The notes under the pieces were generated by a model. It saw only the letters and a list, made by a program, of their open reading frames with translations, had not been told where the DNA came from and ran no database searches. The translations under genes and the position numbers were made by a program. Of a DNA stretch of 64,000 nt, positions 41,433-59,150 are shown in pieces. Where the stretch lies: the NCBI GenBank assembly GCA_017551925.1, contig JAFZKA010000065.1, positions 1-64,000 on the forward strand, written 5' to 3'. Position 1 is the stretch's first letter; every line of letters begins with the position of its first letter. The stretch is from Bacteroidaceae bacterium (GTDB lineage: Bacteria > Bacteroidota > Bacteroidia > Bacteroidales > Bacteroidaceae).

Positions 41433-42827
41433 TTACCAGGCGAATACACCGCGATACCAGTTGTCATATGATGATTCACTAAACTTAGAAACAGAGAACA
41501 GATATACTCCATAATCATCTTTATAAGTACGACGATAGAAAGAGGTGAAATATCTATCTTCATTACTATCTGCGTGGAATGCGTCACCACCGCAAGCGGT
41601 TATCAATGTTTGTATTGCACCGCAGTCGAAACTGGTGCTGCTACCACTGGAATAATTCTCATAGTTGGGGGCTGATCCACCGCAAGCATTGAATATGCGC
41701 TGCCACTGCAGTGTTGCAGGAACAGCCCACTCGCTGGCACCACCGGGACGTTCAGGGAACCCGGCAAATGAGATATTGGGGTAAGCCACCTTTTCTGCAT
41801 TGCCATCATGGAGAGATATGCACAGACCGTGGGTTTTGCCATCAACACCGGTATCCTCGCCCTCGTAGGCAATCATACCTGAGGCGGTAGTGCCAGCAGC
41901 CTCTGCCTCTGCGACCGTAGCATAAATATTGCCATTAGCGCCCAGCACCTTGCCAATTTTACTATCGTACTGGGGCAATTTCAACGTAGAGTTGTAAATC
42001 TTGCCGGCCTGAAGCGTAACTGAAGGAACAGTCTTCTTATAGACCTTTAGTCCAGCTTGAGCCGTAAGGGTGAACGTCTTGTCACTGACTGGTTGCAAAA
42101 CTACGTAGATGGGACCTGCGGTAGCCTCACGACAGATATAGTAAGTATGCGCACCATCGTTGATGGTAAAATTGTTGATAGTCGAGGTTATGTCGCTATT
42201 GTCAGAAGCGTCCTGTATCGTAAATTTACAGATACTCAACTGGTTTGTCATTGAAATAGAAGAAGGCATAGAGGTTCCGTCAAGTGTAAATTCAGACTTG
42301 CAGTAGTCAAATCTGTTTGCACCATACTCACCCTCCAGTGTGCCATCTTGTGAAAATCCAAGGCCTTTACCAAAAGTATTATTTATAATGGCATTCTTCA
42401 TCACGCTTTCTTCATCCAACGTGCAATAATTGCTCCCATTATTAACAAAGAGATGCCAAGGATAAATAATAGCAACCTGGGTGTTTTCTTCCGGGTCGGT
42501 AAGCGTCAAGTTTAGAGTGGCTGTCTTAGTAGCTTCATCATAAGCATAAATATTAACACTAGTATATTTTGCATATTGGTTGCCAGATACATGGTTGTAG
42601 AGCACACAAACTCTTTCACCCACCTTAACAGACTTATGTCCGTCGGCATCGATGGCACGGGTGCCGTTATTGCCGTCAAAGGTAATTTGTATGGTCTGAG
42701 TTACTGTTTTCTCTCCATTGGATTCCTGAATCTCATTGTTCAGTTTGTTGTCCTGAGAGCAGGCGGTCATTCCTGCCACCATCAACAGAGCGGCAGTTAT
42801 GTTTTTGAACATATTGATTTGTTTCAT
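41433..42827 (-). CDS. fimbrillin-like lipoprotein with FISUMP-like C terminus
   Basis: A 464-residue lipoprotein (ATG 42827; lipobox MTAC at about residue 23). The N-terminal 270 residues look like a fimbrillin-type beta-sandwich (TIQITFDGNNGTRAID start, strands ending in LQAGKIYNSTLKL). The C-terminal part begins KIGKVLGANGNIYATVAEAE and resembles lectin-like FISUMP modules (WQRIFNACGG, then FDCGAIQTLITACGG). It is the second lipoprotein of cassette I, 35 bases after the first. Pilus tip or surface adhesin roles are inferred from family. Confidence 0.7.
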   Translation of the reverse strand: MKQINMFKNITAALLMVAGMTACSQDNKLNNEIQESNGEKTVTQTIQITFDGNNGTRAIDADGHKSVKVGERVCVLYNHVSGNQYAKYTSVNIYAYDEATKTATLNLTLTDPEENTQVAIIYPWHLFVNNGSNYCTLDEESVMKNAIINNTFGKGLGFSQDGTLEGEYGANRFDYCKSEFTLDGTSMPSSISMTNQLSICKFTIQDASDNSDITSTINNFTINDGAHTYYICREATAGPIYVVLQPVSDKTFTLTAQAGLKVYKKTVPSVTLQAGKIYNSTLKLPQYDSKIGKVLGANGNIYATVAEAEAAGTTASGMIAYEGEDTGVDGKTHGLCISLHDGNAEKVAYPNISFAGFPERPGGASEWAVPATLQWQRIFNACGGSAPNYENYSSGSSTSFDCGAIQTLITACGGDAFHADSNEDRYFTSFYRRTYKDDYGVYLFSVSKFSESSYDNWYRGVFAW

Positions 42828-42862
42828 CGTTTGATTCAATTTTTATGGTTAGACATTTGTTA

Positions 42863-43768
42863 TTAAAGACCTAAGAACGGATCGCCTCCATCCTCGTAGT
42901 CATTAATAATACCACTGATGCATGGCACATTAGTCCATTTAGAGGAGATATCACCCAGACCTATGTATTTGCTTTCGCTTATGGTTTTGCTACCTGCGTC
43001 ATATCTGTAAAGCAATAGTCCTGTGTTGTCAAAGATGCTAAACTGGTATTTAACGGCGCGACCCACTGCGCTGGAAACAAGTGCACCTGAAAAAGTCAGG
43101 TTGCTTCCGTCCTCATAACCCTTTAAGGAGTTTCCTGCATTACCCTCGTTCAGAGTTATAGTACCGTCTGATGAAACCTGTGCCAAAGCGAGAGGCCTCA
43201 CACTGTTTTGGTACATTGAGTAATCGTTGCTGACGGTAAAGCCCTGAACATCAAAATGTATGTACACTTCGCCGGAATAGAGAGCGGGTGCGCCCAACGT
43301 AAGCGTACCGGATAGTGTACCGGAGCTTATGGTGTAGGAGCTTTTCTCGTCTTTAAGGAAATAGCCCTCATAGGTGGGAGTGAATCCGAACACGCCGCCT
43401 TCGCCTGCAACTACGGTTGAACTGCTTCCGTAGGGAAGATAGACTGCCGTCATCTTTTTTGATGCAGCACCCTCAAGGTCGTCAACGGCAAGGCCGTTCT
43501 TGGCTGTGTATTCCCATGTGCCGGAATTGGTACGCTTCGCCTCAAGGTACTTGGGCGATGCTATTCCGTCAAAGAATATGAACACTACGTCATTCGTAGC
43601 AAATGAAGACTTTACATATGCCTTGGTATCGGCTGTGCTTATGGTCAGGTTTACCTTGAAACCGCCCGTCTCCTGAAGTTCCTGATCGGGAGTCTCTACG
43701 CTCAGTTTGTCATTGCCGCACGCTACCAGCATGAGCATGGCGCTTAGTATTGCTAATGTCTTTTTCAT
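42863..43768 (-). CDS. fimbrillin-like lipoprotein, first structural gene of cassette I
   Basis: A 301-residue lipoprotein (lipobox MLVAC). An ATG two codons upstream (43774) is also possible. Residues 30-60 read GFKVNLTISTADTKAYVKSS then NDVVFIFFDG, matching the N-terminal pattern of the proteins at 56054 (TKAVKKGWADGDIINIWFDN) and 58248 (TKAAKNAWVAGDKLNIWFQV). The three are paralogues sharing a domain I do not find a name for. It begins 27 bases after the 49-residue peptide gene, the same distance class as in the other cassettes. Confidence 0.75.
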   Translation of the reverse strand: MKKTLAILSAMLMLVACGNDKLSVETPDQELQETGGFKVNLTISTADTKAYVKSSFATNDVVFIFFDGIASPKYLEAKRTNSGTWEYTAKNGLAVDDLEGAASKKMTAVYLPYGSSSTVVAGEGGVFGFTPTYEGYFLKDEKSSYTISSGTLSGTLTLGAPALYSGEVYIHFDVQGFTVSNDYSMYQNSVRPLALAQVSSDGTITLNEGNAGNSLKGYEDGSNLTFSGALVSSAVGRAVKYQFSIFDNTGLLLYRYDAGSKTISESKYIGLGDISSKWTNVPCISGIINDYEDGGDPFLGL

Positions 43769-43795
43769 AATCATTTCTTCAATTTACATTAAACA

Positions 43796-43945
43796 TTACC
43801 AGTCTTCACCTCCTGCAAACGGAACGGTAAATTCACTTCCTAACACTTGTAAAACGGACAACACCCCGCTGTTGCAAAGGACCCTCTCCGTCTGGAGTTC
43901 CACAACCTGGGTCGTGGGAGATTCATAGTTCTTTTTCTTTTTCAT
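43796..43945 (-). CDS. cassette peptide, 49 residues, undescribed family
   Basis: A 49-residue peptide starting MKKKKNYESPTTQVVELQTE, then RVLCNSG, and ending PFAGGEDW. It matches two others in the window (55871 and 58079): MKKKK.Y..PTT.VV...TE..LC.S is common to all, and all end in Trp with a nearby acidic residue and PF. There is no signal peptide. It is too short for ordinary gene callers but conservation of frame, start, length and position before a paralogous lipoprotein gene supports it as coding. It lies downstream of the leader with upstream ORF and hairpin. Confidence 0.8.
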   Translation of the reverse strand: MKKKKNYESPTTQVVELQTERVLCNSGVLSVLQVLGSEFTVPFAGGEDW

Positions 43946-43983
43946 TTTGTAATCGTATAAATATGATTATTGGTTATAGGCAT

Positions 43984-44019
43984 AAAAAAACACGCGGACT
44001 CCGGCATGGAATCCGCGTG
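43984..44019 (-). terminator. leader attenuator hairpin, cassette I
   Basis: On the minus strand CACGCGGA (44019-44012) pairs with TCCGCGTG (43998-43991) around a 13-base loop, followed by seven T (43990-43984). This is a full intrinsic terminator located between the promoter and the peptide gene (ATG 43945), 34 bases after the stop of the upstream ORF. It should stop most transcripts unless prevented, so it is a candidate attenuator. The same arrangement recurs at 57979-58013. Confidence 0.75.
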
Positions 44020-44053
44020 AAATATATTTAATATATTGATTAATAAGTCTTTA

Positions 44054-44119
44054 TTACCCCCCCCCTATTACATAAGAGAGATTCCCAAAAGCTTGGCTAT
44101 CGGAAAGGCTATTGTACAT
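44054..44119 (-). CDS. 21-codon upstream ORF ending in GGG GGG GGG TAA, cassette I
   Basis: ATG at 44119 starts a 21-residue frame, MYNSL...YVIGGG, whose last three codons are a nine-G tract (44065-44057) followed directly by tandem TAA stops. A second ORF of exactly the same length with the same start pattern (M-x-N-S-L) and the same end is found at 57880-57945. The bases just before the ATG are also conserved. A leader peptide whose translation controls the hairpin downstream is the simplest reading; no protein evidence is available. Confidence 0.65.
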   Translation of the reverse strand: MYNSLSDSQAFGNLSYVIGGG

Positions 44120-44171
44120 CTTTGACTAAAAGTTGTACAAAGATATAAATAACCTTTAAAGAATATTCAAA
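44112..44171 (-). promoter_or_regulatory. cassette I promoter and start-site dyad
   Basis: On the minus strand TTTG (44171-44168), a 22-base spacer and TATCTTTG (44145-44138) form the promoter. TTGTACA/TGTACAA (44140-44134 and 44118-44112) is a 7-bp dyad with a 15-base loop that overlaps the end of the -7 element and the ATG of the upstream ORF. The equivalent dyad in cassette III is TTGCGCA/TGCGCAA, so two base pairs have changed together. Confidence 0.6.
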
Positions 44172-44205
44172 ATAATGTATATATTTTTCAACATGGAGTA
44201 ATTGG

Positions 44206-55636: not shown

Positions 55637-55652
55637 ACTCACACAGAAAGCA

Positions 55653-55738
55653 CAGAAATATTTCGCTTCGCGTTAATCTCTCGCAGAGATCGCAGAAACC
55701 GCAGATAAATTTCTGCGATCTCTGCGATTTCTGCGAGA
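55653..55738. repeat. dispersed repeat copy 1, flanking cassette II
   Basis: An 86-bp sequence repeated nearly identically at 57658-57744. It begins CAGAAATATTTCGCTTCGCG and contains imperfect inverted arms built from CTCGCAGAGATCGCAGAAA and its complement, so it folds into a long hairpin. Copies bracket the 1.9-kb cassette II in direct orientation. A degenerate third piece lies near 59258-59300. Confidence 0.85.
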
Positions 55739-55794
55739 CTTTGTTTTCCGCGAGAGACCTTACTTCGGTAAAAAACATGCATCAAATCAACAAC

Positions 55795-55818
55795 AATTAT
55801 TTGTTTTTATTAACTTTA
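55795..55818 (+). promoter_or_regulatory. cassette II promoter
   Basis: A 23-base block ending TATTAACTTT is identical to 57839-57861 in cassette III; here the -7 reads TAACTTTA (55811-55818) with A in place of the final G. The remaining leader is short and lacks the upstream ORF, G tract and hairpin found in cassettes I and III. Confidence 0.5.
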
Positions 55819-55870
55819 CGCATCATTGACCTGAGATTCACAACTAACCTTATTACATATTCTACAACAA

Positions 55871-56032
55871 ATGAAAAAGAAAAAGATTTATTCAAGGCCC
55901 ACAACCCATGTTGTGGAGACCAAAACAGAACAGATTCTGTGTATGAGTTCTGTAGGGATTATCAGCATCTTGATGGACAGTGAATCAGCAATTTCCAACC
56001 CCTTTGCCGGTTTGGAGGAAGTATTGTGGTAA
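55871..56032 (+). CDS. cassette peptide, 53 residues, undescribed family
   Basis: Starts MKKKKIYSRPTTHVVETKTE, continues QILCMSSVG and ends NPFAGLEEVLW. It shares the MKKKK.Y..PTT.VV...TE..LC.S core, the PFAG motif and the terminal Trp with the peptides at 43796 and 58079. There is no signal peptide. The next gene (ATG 56054) begins 21 bases downstream. A C-terminal insertion of four residues distinguishes it from the 49-residue members. Function unknown. Confidence 0.8.
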   Translation: MKKKKIYSRPTTHVVETKTEQILCMSSVGIISILMDSESAISNPFAGLEEVLW

Positions 56033-56053
56033 CCTTTAAACATTTTGAAGACA

Positions 56054-57646
56054 ATGAAAAAGATTAATATTCTATTGGCAACCCTAGCAATGCTGGTAGC
56101 CACTGTTTCATGTAACAATGATGACAAGATCCAGACTGAAGAGCTTGGAGTTCCCGCAGGTAGCATTAGAGTCAACATCGCTATAAGTGATCTGCAGCCT
56201 ACAACCAAAGCTGTCAAGAAAGGTTGGGCAGATGGTGACATAATCAATATCTGGTTTGATAATAAAGTATTTCAGACACCTGAACTGACAATGACATACA
56301 ACAATGGTGCATGGGTGGCATCACAAATCTCAGATGAAGTGGTCAATCAGTTAAAATCAAATGGCACAATCTGGGGCTTCTATGAGGCTTCAAATTCTGC
56401 TACTACTGCCTGGACGTTCGGAGATAGTGGAAAATCCGGATATGTTGCCAATTTTGAAACTCCCGAATCCAATTGGACAGTTGGCACATACGGTTACCTG
56501 ACTGTTAAATTCCAAAACATCAGTTATACATTTGACGGAACAACTCTCAGTGCCAATTTGAACAATTGGACTTTTGGAACTGATTTCCAAATGGTAATAA
56601 CCGGTCTGGATAATACAAAGACGTGGACACTTAAAAGTGCTGGTATAGTTAACTGGTATGGCATTCAAATGTGGCTTGAAGGTGAGAATCATGACGAGTT
56701 CAACATGTGGTATTATTTAGGAGGTTCAAACCGTCCAATGTATGGAATGCCTAATGATGACGGATTAGCATTCTATGGAAGATTGGAATCTAGTGACAAT
56801 TCTGCTCAGAATCATACCTTTACTCTTACAAATGTAACAGACAATGTAACATATACCCTTACCAAGAACGCTCAAATCAGCACAAATCAGGGCGCAACTC
56901 TTTTTGCCGCAAAGGTTCCGTTTGGCAGGTTCTCAATAGATATGGGTAACGGCTTAAAGTGGGCTGTCAGCAATCTAGGTGCCGATAATCCATGGGACTA
57001 CGGTGATTACTTTGCCTGGGCGGCCACCACACCTTATTACGAGGCTGGCTATGCTCAGGAAAACCCGCAGGCCCACTGGCGTGAGGGAAAGAGCAGTGGA
57101 TACTATTGGTCTAGTTATCCTTTCATGCAATCCGGTCAAAAATCTTCCAAATACATTACCAAATATACCTATGCCGATGGTAAGACAAGCAACATATATT
57201 ATAAAAATAACAAATTCAAGGGTGATAATGGTGATGGCGTAGAGCACAAGGACTTTGCCTCATACGATTATGTTGATGACCCTGCCCGTTATAACTTGGG
57301 TGGCACCTGGCGCACACCTACAAAACAGGAGTGGGACTGGTTGATTTCAAACTGCACTTGGGTTTCAACGAGTGATTACAACGGCTCCGGTGTGAAAGGC
57401 TACATTGTGACAAGTAAAATTGAAGGTTTTCAGAATAACAGCATCTTCATTCCTGCTGCCGGTTCTTATAGCAATAAACTTCTCGGTAATGATGGTTACT
57501 GCTACTATTGGTCTGCATCCCTCGCTGATACTAGCGGCAGTCAAGGTGGCTCGCACCGCGCATGGTCTTTCAGTTCATTGATGGGACCCAAGATGAATAG
57601 CACAGAACGCCAATTCGGCAACACCATCCGTCCAGTCTGCGAATAA
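56054..57646 (+). CDS. fimbrillin-like lipoprotein with FISUMP domain, cassette II
   Basis: A 530-residue lipoprotein (ATG 56054; lipobox VATVSC at about residue 20; a TTG at 56045 is less likely). Residues 35-290 carry the cassette lipoprotein domain (TKAVKKGWADGDIINIWFDN). Residues 295-530 are a FISUMP module (GNGLKWAVSNLG, DYFAWAATTPYYEAGYAQEN, GGTWRTPTKQEWDWL, SIFIPAAG, YYWSAS, NTIRPV). The combination suggests a surface-exposed binding protein. It corresponds to a fusion of the two lipoprotein types that are separate genes in cassette I. Confidence 0.8.
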   Translation: MKKINILLATLAMLVATVSCNNDDKIQTEELGVPAGSIRVNIAISDLQPTTKAVKKGWADGDIINIWFDNKVFQTPELTMTYNNGAWVASQISDEVVNQLKSNGTIWGFYEASNSATTAWTFGDSGKSGYVANFETPESNWTVGTYGYLTVKFQNISYTFDGTTLSANLNNWTFGTDFQMVITGLDNTKTWTLKSAGIVNWYGIQMWLEGENHDEFNMWYYLGGSNRPMYGMPNDDGLAFYGRLESSDNSAQNHTFTLTNVTDNVTYTLTKNAQISTNQGATLFAAKVPFGRFSIDMGNGLKWAVSNLGADNPWDYGDYFAWAATTPYYEAGYAQENPQAHWREGKSSGYYWSSYPFMQSGQKSSKYITKYTYADGKTSNIYYKNNKFKGDNGDGVEHKDFASYDYVDDPARYNLGGTWRTPTKQEWDWLISNCTWVSTSDYNGSGVKGYIVTSKIEGFQNNSIFIPAAGSYSNKLLGNDGYCYYWSASLADTSGSQGGSHRAWSFSSLMGPKMNSTERQFGNTIRPVCE

Positions 57647-57657
57647 CACAAATAGCT

Positions 57658-57744
57658 CAGAAATATTTCGCTTCGCGTTAATCTCTCGCAGAGATCGCAG
57701 AAACCGCAGATAAAATTTCTGCGATCTCTGCGCTTTCTGCGAGA
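57658..57744. repeat. dispersed repeat copy 2, flanking cassette II
   Basis: Near-identical to 55653-55738, with one single-base indel and few substitutions. Starts 12 bases after the cassette II stop codon and folds into a long imperfect hairpin that may also end transcription. Same orientation as copy 1. Confidence 0.85.
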
Positions 57745-57838: not shown

Positions 57839-57887
57839 AATTATTTGTTTTTATTAACTTTGCGCAACTTTAGTCAGAAATGCGCAA
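57839..57887 (+). promoter_or_regulatory. cassette III promoter and start-site dyad
   Basis: TAACTTTG at 57855-57862 is a consensus -7 element inside a block shared with cassette II. The dyad TTGCGCA/TGCGCAA (57860-57866 and 57881-57887, 14-base loop) begins in the -7 element and ends inside the start of the upstream ORF. No clear -33 box. Downstream bases AACTTT-AGTCA are conserved with cassette I. Confidence 0.6.
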
Positions 57888-57945
57888 TAGTCTTATCCAT
57901 AGGATGTTTTCTGATGCGCTCCTTTATAATTTAGGGGGGGGGTAA
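57880..57945 (+). CDS. 21-codon upstream ORF ending in GGG GGG GGG TAA, cassette III
   Basis: ATG at 57880 opens a 21-residue frame MRNSL...LYNLGGG. The nine-G tract (57934-57942) forms its last three codons, followed by TAA TAA. It equals the cassette I upstream ORF in length, in M-x-N-S-L start, in a Tyr three residues before the glycines, and in the GGG end, although the middle differs. Same-length, same-frame conservation argues that it is translated. Confidence 0.65.
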   Translation: MRNSLIHRMFSDALLYNLGGG

Positions 57946-57978
57946 TAATAGACTTTTAATCAATAATTTACATATTCT

Positions 57979-58013
57979 ACACGTGGATTCTCTTTTGAGC
58001 CCACGTGTTTTTT
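57979..58013 (+). terminator. leader attenuator hairpin, cassette III
   Basis: ACACGTGG (57979-57986) pairs with CCACGTGT (58001-58008) around a 14-base loop, with a run of six T (58008-58013). It lies 33 bases after the upstream ORF stop and 65 bases before the peptide gene. The stem sequence differs from cassette I but position and form are the same. Confidence 0.7.
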
Positions 58014-58078
58014 GTGTCTTTATACCACTCCTACTTACCTGATTCATACATTTAACCCTATAACATATTTATACAAAG

Positions 58079-58228
58079 ATGAAAAAGAAAAAACTTTATT
58101 CAAGCCCCACGACCGATGTCGTGAAGATTAAGACAGAGGGTATCCTGTGTACCAGCGGTCTTGATGCGATTGTGTCAACATTAGATTTAGCAAGTCCCTT
58201 CGGTAATAACACTGAAGTAGAGTGGTAA
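58079..58228 (+). CDS. cassette peptide, 49 residues, undescribed family
   Basis: Starts MKKKKLYSSPTTDVVKIKTE, continues GILCTSG and ends SPFGNNTEVEW. Same family as the peptides at 43796 and 55871. The lipoprotein gene follows within 20 bases. Not detected by ordinary length cutoffs; support comes from three-way conservation. Roles to consider: a peptide partner, a RiPP-like precursor (conserved Cys and C-terminal Trp), or a regulatory peptide. None is shown by sequence. Confidence 0.8.
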   Translation: MKKKKLYSSPTTDVVKIKTEGILCTSGLDAIVSTLDLASPFGNNTEVEW

Positions 58229-58247
58229 CTTAAAAATGACTACGATT

Positions 58248-59150
58248 ATGAAAAAGATTTTTGCAATTCTTATGGCAGTATTTGCCATCGCAGTTGTGTC
58301 ATGCTCAAAAGAAGATCTGAACGATATCGTATCAGCAGATCCTCAAGAGAATGATTTTGAGACAATCAAAATAAATATCACTTTCCCCGGTGAAACTAAA
58401 GCCGCCAAGAACGCTTGGGTAGCCGGCGATAAACTCAATATTTGGTTCCAAGTAAATGAAAGTACAGATCATTTATCTCCTGATTTGGTTATTACATATG
58501 ACGGTTCCACATGGAAAGCCGGTTCTCTTCGTTCTGGAGCAACACTTTCTGCATCAGGAGATAACATGACATTACTTTACGAGGGACATAATAATATTAT
58601 TTCATGTGATAACTATAATTATTACAATGGATCTGCTTGGTATAGTTTCTATGCTAAAGACTACCATAATGTTTATTCCAATGGTTTGATATTCTATGCA
58701 TATAATATAAAGTATACTTATTCAGATAACACATTGAGTGCCAAAATCTCCACCTGGCAATATGCTACAAGGTTTAAAGTGTTGATTAAGAATAACGACA
58801 ATGGAATGATTCATAATCCCAATGAGTATATACTCCAGGTGGTAAATAATAGTACTGACCCGATTTCATATCCCGGATCAAGAGGAGCGATAGTTATCAG
58901 ACGTGAATATGATAGAATTGATGTTAATAACGGGTCCAGCAATTATGAAGGCAGAGTATCAGGTTTTCAAGAGGCTGATGGTATTGCTTTCTACTATACC
59001 AGTTTTAATGCAACTAACGCTGATATCACATTCTCACTTAGAGATATCAACAATGGAACAGTTAAAACATACTCTGTGACCAACAAGACAATAGCTGCGA
59101 ATCAAAATTGTTGTACCGGCATAGTACTTAACTACTCCTCATTCAATTAA
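58248..59150 (+). CDS. fimbrillin-like lipoprotein, cassette III
   Basis: A 300-residue lipoprotein (lipobox AVVSC). An ATG at 58236 would add four residues; 58248 (MKKIF) matches the sister genes. The domain pattern TKAAKNAWVAGDKLNIWFQV identifies it as a paralogue of the first lipoprotein in cassettes I and II. No FISUMP module is attached. Codon use is noticeably A/T-rich compared with the housekeeping genes, suggesting horizontal exchange or relaxed selection. Confidence 0.75.
   Translation: MKKIFAILMAVFAIAVVSCSKEDLNDIVSADPQENDFETIKINITFPGETKAAKNAWVAGDKLNIWFQVNESTDHLSPDLVITYDGSTWKAGSLRSGATLSASGDNMTLLYEGHNNIISCDNYNYYNGSAWYSFYAKDYHNVYSNGLIFYAYNIKYTYSDNTLSAKISTWQYATRFKVLIKNNDNGMIHNPNEYILQVVNNSTDPISYPGSRGAIVIRREYDRIDVNNGSSNYEGRVSGFQEADGIAFYYTSFNATNADITFSLRDINNGTVKTYSVTNKTIAANQNCCTGIVLNYSSFN

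Follow-up and report, generated by a model that had tools for sequence, protein, structure and literature searches.

Two leaders in a 64,000-nt stretch of contig JAFZKA010000065.1 from a Bacteroidaceae bacterium (positions 1 to 64,000, hereafter the window), together with their relatives elsewhere in the genus, are probably slipped-strand, phase-variable transcription attenuators, a reading to which we assign a probability of roughly 0.77. RNA polymerase would start just 3′ of a −7 promoter element and ribosomes would load on a short leader ORF at once. A G gained or lost at a G-tract in this ORF during DNA replication would then shift the downstream frame. In two frames of three, the ribosome would stop ∼15 to 45 nt before a hairpin, the terminator would form, and the operon would be OFF; in the third, it would run through the hairpin, blocking the terminator, so that the peptide and lipoprotein genes beyond it would be transcribed (ON). 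The simplest mechanism is that a ribosome translating the open frame directly occludes the terminator. We infer a tract length that changes reversibly within a strain, antitermination that depends on the ribosome, and an effect on lipoprotein expression. The case rests on a combination of features: the spacing of the tract, a three-phase rule for the reading frames, the open frames of leaders with broken tracts, an ATGA overlap between the open frame and the following gene, and the in-frame fusion found in leader L005.

Cassette I lies on the minus strand. Its −7 element (TATCTTTG; 44138..44145) is of the Bacteroidota type, for which the consensus is TAnnTTTG, and is followed by a leader ORF that as sequenced has 21 codons plus TAA and is in the OFF phase (44054..44119, with the ATG at 44119 and the TAA at 44056-44054; MYNSLSDSQAFGNLSYVIGGG). 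A tract of nine Gs (44057..44065) is the proposed slipped-strand switch. Frame computation placed the ON-phase frame 3′ of the tract at 43942..44058 (GNKDLLINILNIFHADSMPESACFFMPITNNHIYTITK, then a stop); it stays open through the terminator and closes on a TGA that shares bases with the start codon of the peptide gene (ATGA). The intrinsic terminator (43984..44019) comprises a 29-nt hairpin (44019-43991) of 12 pairs, 8 of them GC, and seven Ts (43990-43984), and it was the sole terminator-like site in 43900-44200 (shuffle mean, 0.1). Beyond it are genes for a 49-aa peptide (43796..43945), a 303-aa lipoprotein with a lipobox-like LVACGN identified by eye (42863..43774), and a second protein of 468 aa (41433..42839).

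Cassette II, on the plus strand, repeats this arrangement. A −7 element matching the same consensus (TAACTTTG; 57855..57862) precedes a leader ORF that is again 21 codons plus TAA as sequenced and in the OFF phase (57880..57945; MRNSLIHRMFSDALLYNLGGG), with a G9 tract at 57934..57942. The ON-phase frame 3′ of the tract (57941..58042; GNNRLLINNLHILHVDSLLSPRVFCVFIPLLLT, then a stop) was computed to be open through an intrinsic terminator at 57979..58013, made up of a 30-nt hairpin (57979-58008) and five Ts. Genes for a 49-aa peptide (58079..58228) and a 304-aa lipoprotein (58236..59150) follow. A preliminary description of this DNA had given the order of −7 element, 21-codon ORF ending in nine Gs and TAA, terminator, and 49-aa peptide gene, which was confirmed at 43984-44145 on the minus strand; its observation that the order recurs at a second site was likewise borne out, at 57855-58013 on the plus strand ahead of peptide and lipoprotein genes. 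The further proposal that the leader ORF gates the terminator in front of surface-lipoprotein genes is supported by both window sites and by homologous leaders elsewhere.

Family assignments for the payload were sparse. The best match was that of the 468-aa protein to the NCBIfam Mfa1 fimbria family, at 31 bits and below the cutoff of 130. The 304-aa protein matched the NCBIfam PG1828 lipoprotein family below its cutoff (25.8 bits; cutoff, 50), and the 303-aa protein had a single NCBIfam lipoprotein match, at 16 bits and likewise below its cutoff. Pfam returned nothing for the two peptides (copies I and II) or the four cassette proteins, and the peptide of cassette I had no Pfam or NCBIfam match at an E value of ≤0.01. 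Structure prediction for the 303-aa protein was poor (mean pLDDT, 53.3), and its Foldseek matches, mostly antibody fragments with TM-scores of <0.26, were discarded.

A pattern search of the organism's own genome identified two more copies, and a covariance model built from six leaders (R1) raised the number to five and also found relatives in the genus. The five leaders of this genome are L001 and L002 (both in the window), L003, L004, and L030. The covariance-model search for homologous leaders that the preliminary description had proposed was productive: all 17 hits of a second model (R2, 14 leaders) were accepted, and they fall in 11 of the 37 genus genomes; L021, L043, and L044 had been in neither training set. 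Two R1 hits, L024 (E value, 0.014) and L025 (E value, 0.035), were dropped since no leader could be seen by eye. Outside the genus, R2 returned a single hit among 399 family genomes (G397; E value, 0.007), dropped because only a terminator was apparent by eye, and a single hit among 393 order genomes (L099 in G464; E value, 0.0023), dropped because the tract appears to lie within an ordinary coding ORF. In L099, which is from a different family of the same order, the G9 run is at the ORF start and one frame leads into a signal-peptide-like sequence by eye, so that from its sequence the tract looks like ordinary coding phase variation. As the family and order searches sampled a larger group under stricter filters, weak relatives outside the genus may be missed. 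The leader pattern had no matches in viral contigs or in a first scan of genome contigs; a second scan of genome contigs gave two loci, L007 and L008, which were left out of all counts because their leader sequence and tract equal those of L006 and L005, respectively, and they are very likely the same records.

Of the 17 leaders, 13 have TAnnTTTG 17 to 19 nt before the start codon (per-locus background, 0 to 0.051), a distance that would put the start codon near the 5′ end of the RNA; the exact motif was absent from L005, L028, L043, and L044. Intrinsic terminators, assessed by eye, had a clear T run in 12 leaders, a weak one in three (L028, L043, and L044), and none in two (L005 and L023).

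In the window, two G9 runs were observed against 0.34 expected, and since 8 of 100 shuffles reached two, these tracts alone are only mildly unusual; G7 was not enriched there (6 matches versus 6.14 expected). The whole 2.6-Mb assembly has eight tracts of at least eight Gs (12 overlapping matches), five of them at the identical position in homologous leaders and three with no leader discernible by eye. Among the 17 leaders, the tract is G9 in six (L001, L002, L004, L005, L022, and L028) and G8 in six (L003, L006, L018, L019, L023, and L030), interrupted in three (GGTGGGGG in L016; GGGGGGAG in L043 and L044), and absent from two (L020 and L021). An intact G8 or G9 tract 52 to 54 nt past the start codon was thus present in 12 of the 17. 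The same spacing was found in every one of the 14 leaders that have at least six Gs in a row, a constancy that is partly by choice because GTG was taken as the start of L023 and the second of two in-frame ATGs as that of L028. Lengths of 8 and 9 differ between copies and between genomes in the assemblies, a difference that may be an assembly error.

For the 14 leaders having six or more consecutive Gs, the stop of the ORF was computed at tract lengths of −1, 0, and +1. Exactly one phase of the three was open past the hairpin in 13. Of the 26 closed phases in those 13 leaders, 25 stopped 15 to 45 nt ahead of the hairpin, and the single exception, in L030, stopped inside it. The hairpins that the script had picked for L003 and L030 have an extended stem. 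The remaining leader, L023, had no open phase relative to the hairpin chosen by the script, and by eye it passes a nearer, weaker one. As sequenced, 10 of the 17 leaders are open through the hairpin (L003, L005, L006, L016, L020, L021, L022, L030, L043, and L044) and six are closed (L001, L002, L004, L018, L019, and L028), with L023 not assignable. States are mixed in one genome, where L001, L002, and L004 have G9 and are closed while L003 and L030 have G8 and are open. Taken from sequence, both window copies (G9) can be read as OFF, and the two G8 copies of the same genome as ON.

All five leaders with a broken or missing tract (L016, L043/L044, and L020/L021, representing three loci) are open through the hairpin, against 5 of 11 with an intact tract when L023 is left out, a difference that reaches only a P of ∼0.06 by our own arithmetic. 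One such leader, L016, occupies a locus orthologous to that of L004 (flanks 80 to 87% identical), and the former is broken and open where the latter is G9 and closed. The open frame also connects with the genes downstream: in L001 and L006 it ends on the next ATG (ATGA), the next ORF in L006 being an 88-aa fragment rather than a peptide gene, and the open frame of L005 continues straight into the peptide gene as an in-frame fusion. L021 has two open frames beyond the tract position. An open frame of ∼65 to 80 nt is in itself not rare, as dinucleotide shuffles of the post-tract regions kept at least one frame open in 0.35 to 0.78 of trials per leader; the product of these fractions over ten groups, using the highest value of each and excluding L023, was 0.0019, although the groups are partly dependent on one another.

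Long homopolymers can promote slippage, and a fairly improbable alternative is that RNA polymerase or the ribosome slips on G8 or G9 in every cell, so that a constant share of ribosomes would move into the open frame, giving graded rather than bistable expression. In keeping with programmed slippage, both window tracts end exactly at the stop, and a shift of one base gives access to an open frame. Such slippage would, however, not need variation in length, whereas G8 and G9 copies in one genome have different unslipped states and the broken tracts retain the open frame directly.

The preliminary description had instead placed the decision at the Gly-Gly-Gly-stop end of the ORF, where the position of the ribosome would control the terminator. 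In classical attenuation of this kind, pausing or termination by the ribosome at that end might sense glycine or the translation state. Three leaders (L001, L002, and L004) do end in GGG GGG GGG TAA, but this provides just three Gly codons, and the end is missing from the other 14; moreover, the G8 leaders L003 and L030 and the five leaders with broken or missing tracts read through. Pairing that could form an antiterminator was no better than in shuffles in 16 of 17 leaders. Glycine sensing was rejected because the Gly-stop end occurs in only 3 of 17, and we consider attenuation of this kind extremely unlikely.

The comparison with amino-acid operons applies in part. In attenuators of the trp type, a translated leader peptide lies before an intrinsic terminator, as in the leaders described here. 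The phase-variable leaders differ in that the switch sits in the DNA sequence and not in the supply of charged tRNA, and in that no antiterminator pairing was found. Base pairing between the leader and the terminator's 5′ arm was no better than in shuffles for every leader except L028 (shuffle fraction, 0.04, as against ≥0.18 for the other 16 of the 17), which makes a trp-like antiterminator unlikely and fits occlusion of the terminator by the ribosome. Nor was a regulatory codon run of the trp type conserved, the Gly run being absent from L020 and L021 and reduced to two native-frame Gly codons in L018, L019, L022, L043, and L044.

Signals at the level of the RNA raise another possibility, namely, that the leader is a stand-alone small RNA or RNA-binding site whose ORF and frames are incidental. 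The unit from promoter to terminator measures ∼150 nt, the folds of all four leaders modeled had greater stability than those of shuffled sequences (z, −2.6 to −4.1), and TTAATCAAnnnTTA is conserved at the nucleotide level beyond what coding alone requires. Over the first 17 codons there was no consistent coding signal: among the 12 pairs that had changes, the ORF frame held the most synonymous changes in 5, shared first place in 1, and ranked lower in 6. On the other side of the tract, the ON frame held the most synonymous changes in 9 of 12 pairs and shared first place in 2, and in the remaining pair (L020/L021) it ranked lower; neither comparison is a formal test because the pairs share sequences. 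Against an incidental frame stands the retention of one open phase in 13 of 14 leaders despite changes in tract and sequence, and Rfam covariance models, applied at the gathering score to the whole window, found one tRNA and nothing at the leaders. We regard a small RNA or RNA-binding site with an incidental ORF as very unlikely. An LLINxL-like core could be recognized by eye in the ON frame of 16 of the 17 leaders, L023 differing.

Among the terminator pairs compared in six leaders, 4 of 11 had one sequence changed on both sides and 5 of 11 were broken in one or two sequences. Between tract and terminator, AATCAAYnnnTTAnATA (44041-44025; 57958-57974) was conserved nearly letter for letter (alignment A3), and in the organism's own genome it matched four of the five leaders and nothing else (reversed control, 0). 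A CUCCU-like stretch immediately before the G-tract was its pairing partner in all four single folds as well as in the consensus fold of six leaders, and a pause hairpin is a possible role for this predicted pairing. The start-site dyad of the preliminary description is present as two TGNNCA palindromes (44141-44110; 57859-57890), the left one overlapping the −7 element and the other the start codon; most of the diverged relatives do not retain the pair. The two palindromes equal each other in L001 (TGTACA) and in L002, L003, L004, L016, and L030 (TGCGCA), and this equality is lost in L006, L018, L019, L020, and L021. An operator is a possible explanation for the pair, as is chance.

Phase variation through homopolymers within coding genes is familiar from Neisseria and Campylobacter. 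The G-tract leaders resemble those tracts in that a slipped-strand change would shift a frame, and they differ in that the frame is that of a leader ORF and the output would be transcription through a terminator rather than the protein of the slipping gene. In Bacteroidales, phase variation is known mainly from DNA inversion. No precedent in Bacteroidota was present among the matches listed from the open-licence literature, judged on title and the start of the abstract. In the parts consulted of a 2025 review (PMC11868660), passages on Bacteroides deal with inversion or with shifts that depend on temperature, and its main text contains none of the words "leader," "terminat-," and "gallolyticus."

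The preliminary description knew of no leader with this plan. That statement does not hold in principle, because the pil1 locus of Streptococcus gallolyticus works in this way and pil3 is reported to be of like design, according to the portions consulted of Danne et al. 2014 (PMC3894217). There, out-of-frame changes in the number of GCAGA repeats in the leader raise pilus expression, deletion of the terminator locks expression high, and loss of the leader start signal leaves it low; mutants with three stops were, unexpectedly, slightly above the low state (PMC3894217). The evidence for pil1 thus consists of sequenced repeat variants together with terminator and start-codon mutants. As in pil1 and pil3, a simple repeat lies within the ORF of a leader peptide and repeat number sets the frame; the genes controlled are those of surface appendages in S. 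gallolyticus and would be those of surface lipoproteins here. The short pil1 peptide stops 39 to 49 bp before the terminator, two figures being given, whereas the end of the longer peptide falls near the terminator, inside it, or past it (PMC3894217). Unlike pil1, the leaders reported here carry a homopolymer of 8 or 9 Gs and not GCAGA units (22 in pil1 and 13 in pil3 of strain UCN34; PMC3894217), occur in Bacteroidales rather than Streptococcus with five copies in one genome, use a promoter of the Bacteroidota type that would leave the start codon near the 5′ end of the RNA, include broken-tract and leaderless alleles, and precede small-peptide and lipoprotein payloads. On this comparison, the G-tract leaders match pil1 in plan and not in repeat, phylum, promoter, or payload. 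What appears to be new is a homopolymer, multicopy Bacteroidales version of the pil1-type design in front of lipoprotein cassettes with variable payload. If the attenuator reading is right, this would be a second, apparently independent "slippery leader plus terminator," which suggests repeated evolution of the design. Tract length modulo 3 would also give a sequence-only ON/OFF rule for surface-lipoprotein operons that could be applied to metagenome reads, and hidden expression mosaics would be predicted in uncultured bacteria.

The payloads themselves vary. Peptides of 42 to 53 aa resembling M-[KE]-x-K-x-K-x-Y-x-x-P were found behind the leader in most cassettes read (in the window at 43796-43945, 58079-58228, and 55871-56032), and a peptide of the M-[KE]-x-K type was absent behind L006, L028, L043, and L044. 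The leader of L016 resembles that of L004 (91%), and its payload, from ∼44 nt past the terminator, is ∼92% identical to the payload of L020/L021 at a different locus (L086 7890-9753, L089 10125-11992, and L090 2432-4299 compared); in this case the payload seems to have been replaced behind a leader that was retained. A broader and more speculative idea, which we offer as doubtful, is a genus-specific surface-repertoire system in which poly-G switches would remain at fixed loci while peptide-lipoprotein payloads are swapped by recombination just past the terminator, and in which a further layer of control would come from the conserved LLINxL/TTAATCAAnnnTTA stretch, acting perhaps through the nascent peptide or as an RNA signal between tract and terminator.

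A third cassette in the window (55811-57646, plus strand) has no leader ORF, G-tract, or terminator. It begins with a promoter block like those of cassettes I and II and a gene for a 53-aa peptide (55811..56032; peptide gene, 55871-56032), and its −7 element has lost the final G. This leaderless cassette might be constitutively on, its altered −7 element (TAACTTTA) notwithstanding. Flanking it (region 55641-57717) are two direct copies of a 72-nt repeat, at 55641 and 57646, which are 94% identical and lie 2005 apart, an arrangement that suggests recombinational deletion or duplication. At the corresponding site, genome G009 lacks cassettes II and III, the flanking genes there being ∼128 nt apart (L098 8704 and 8832 versus window 59320 and 55617). 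In two genomes, a leader was found in opposite orientation between conserved flanks (L089 9825-13571 versus L091 7838-11040), which could reflect either inversion of the cassette or independent insertion.
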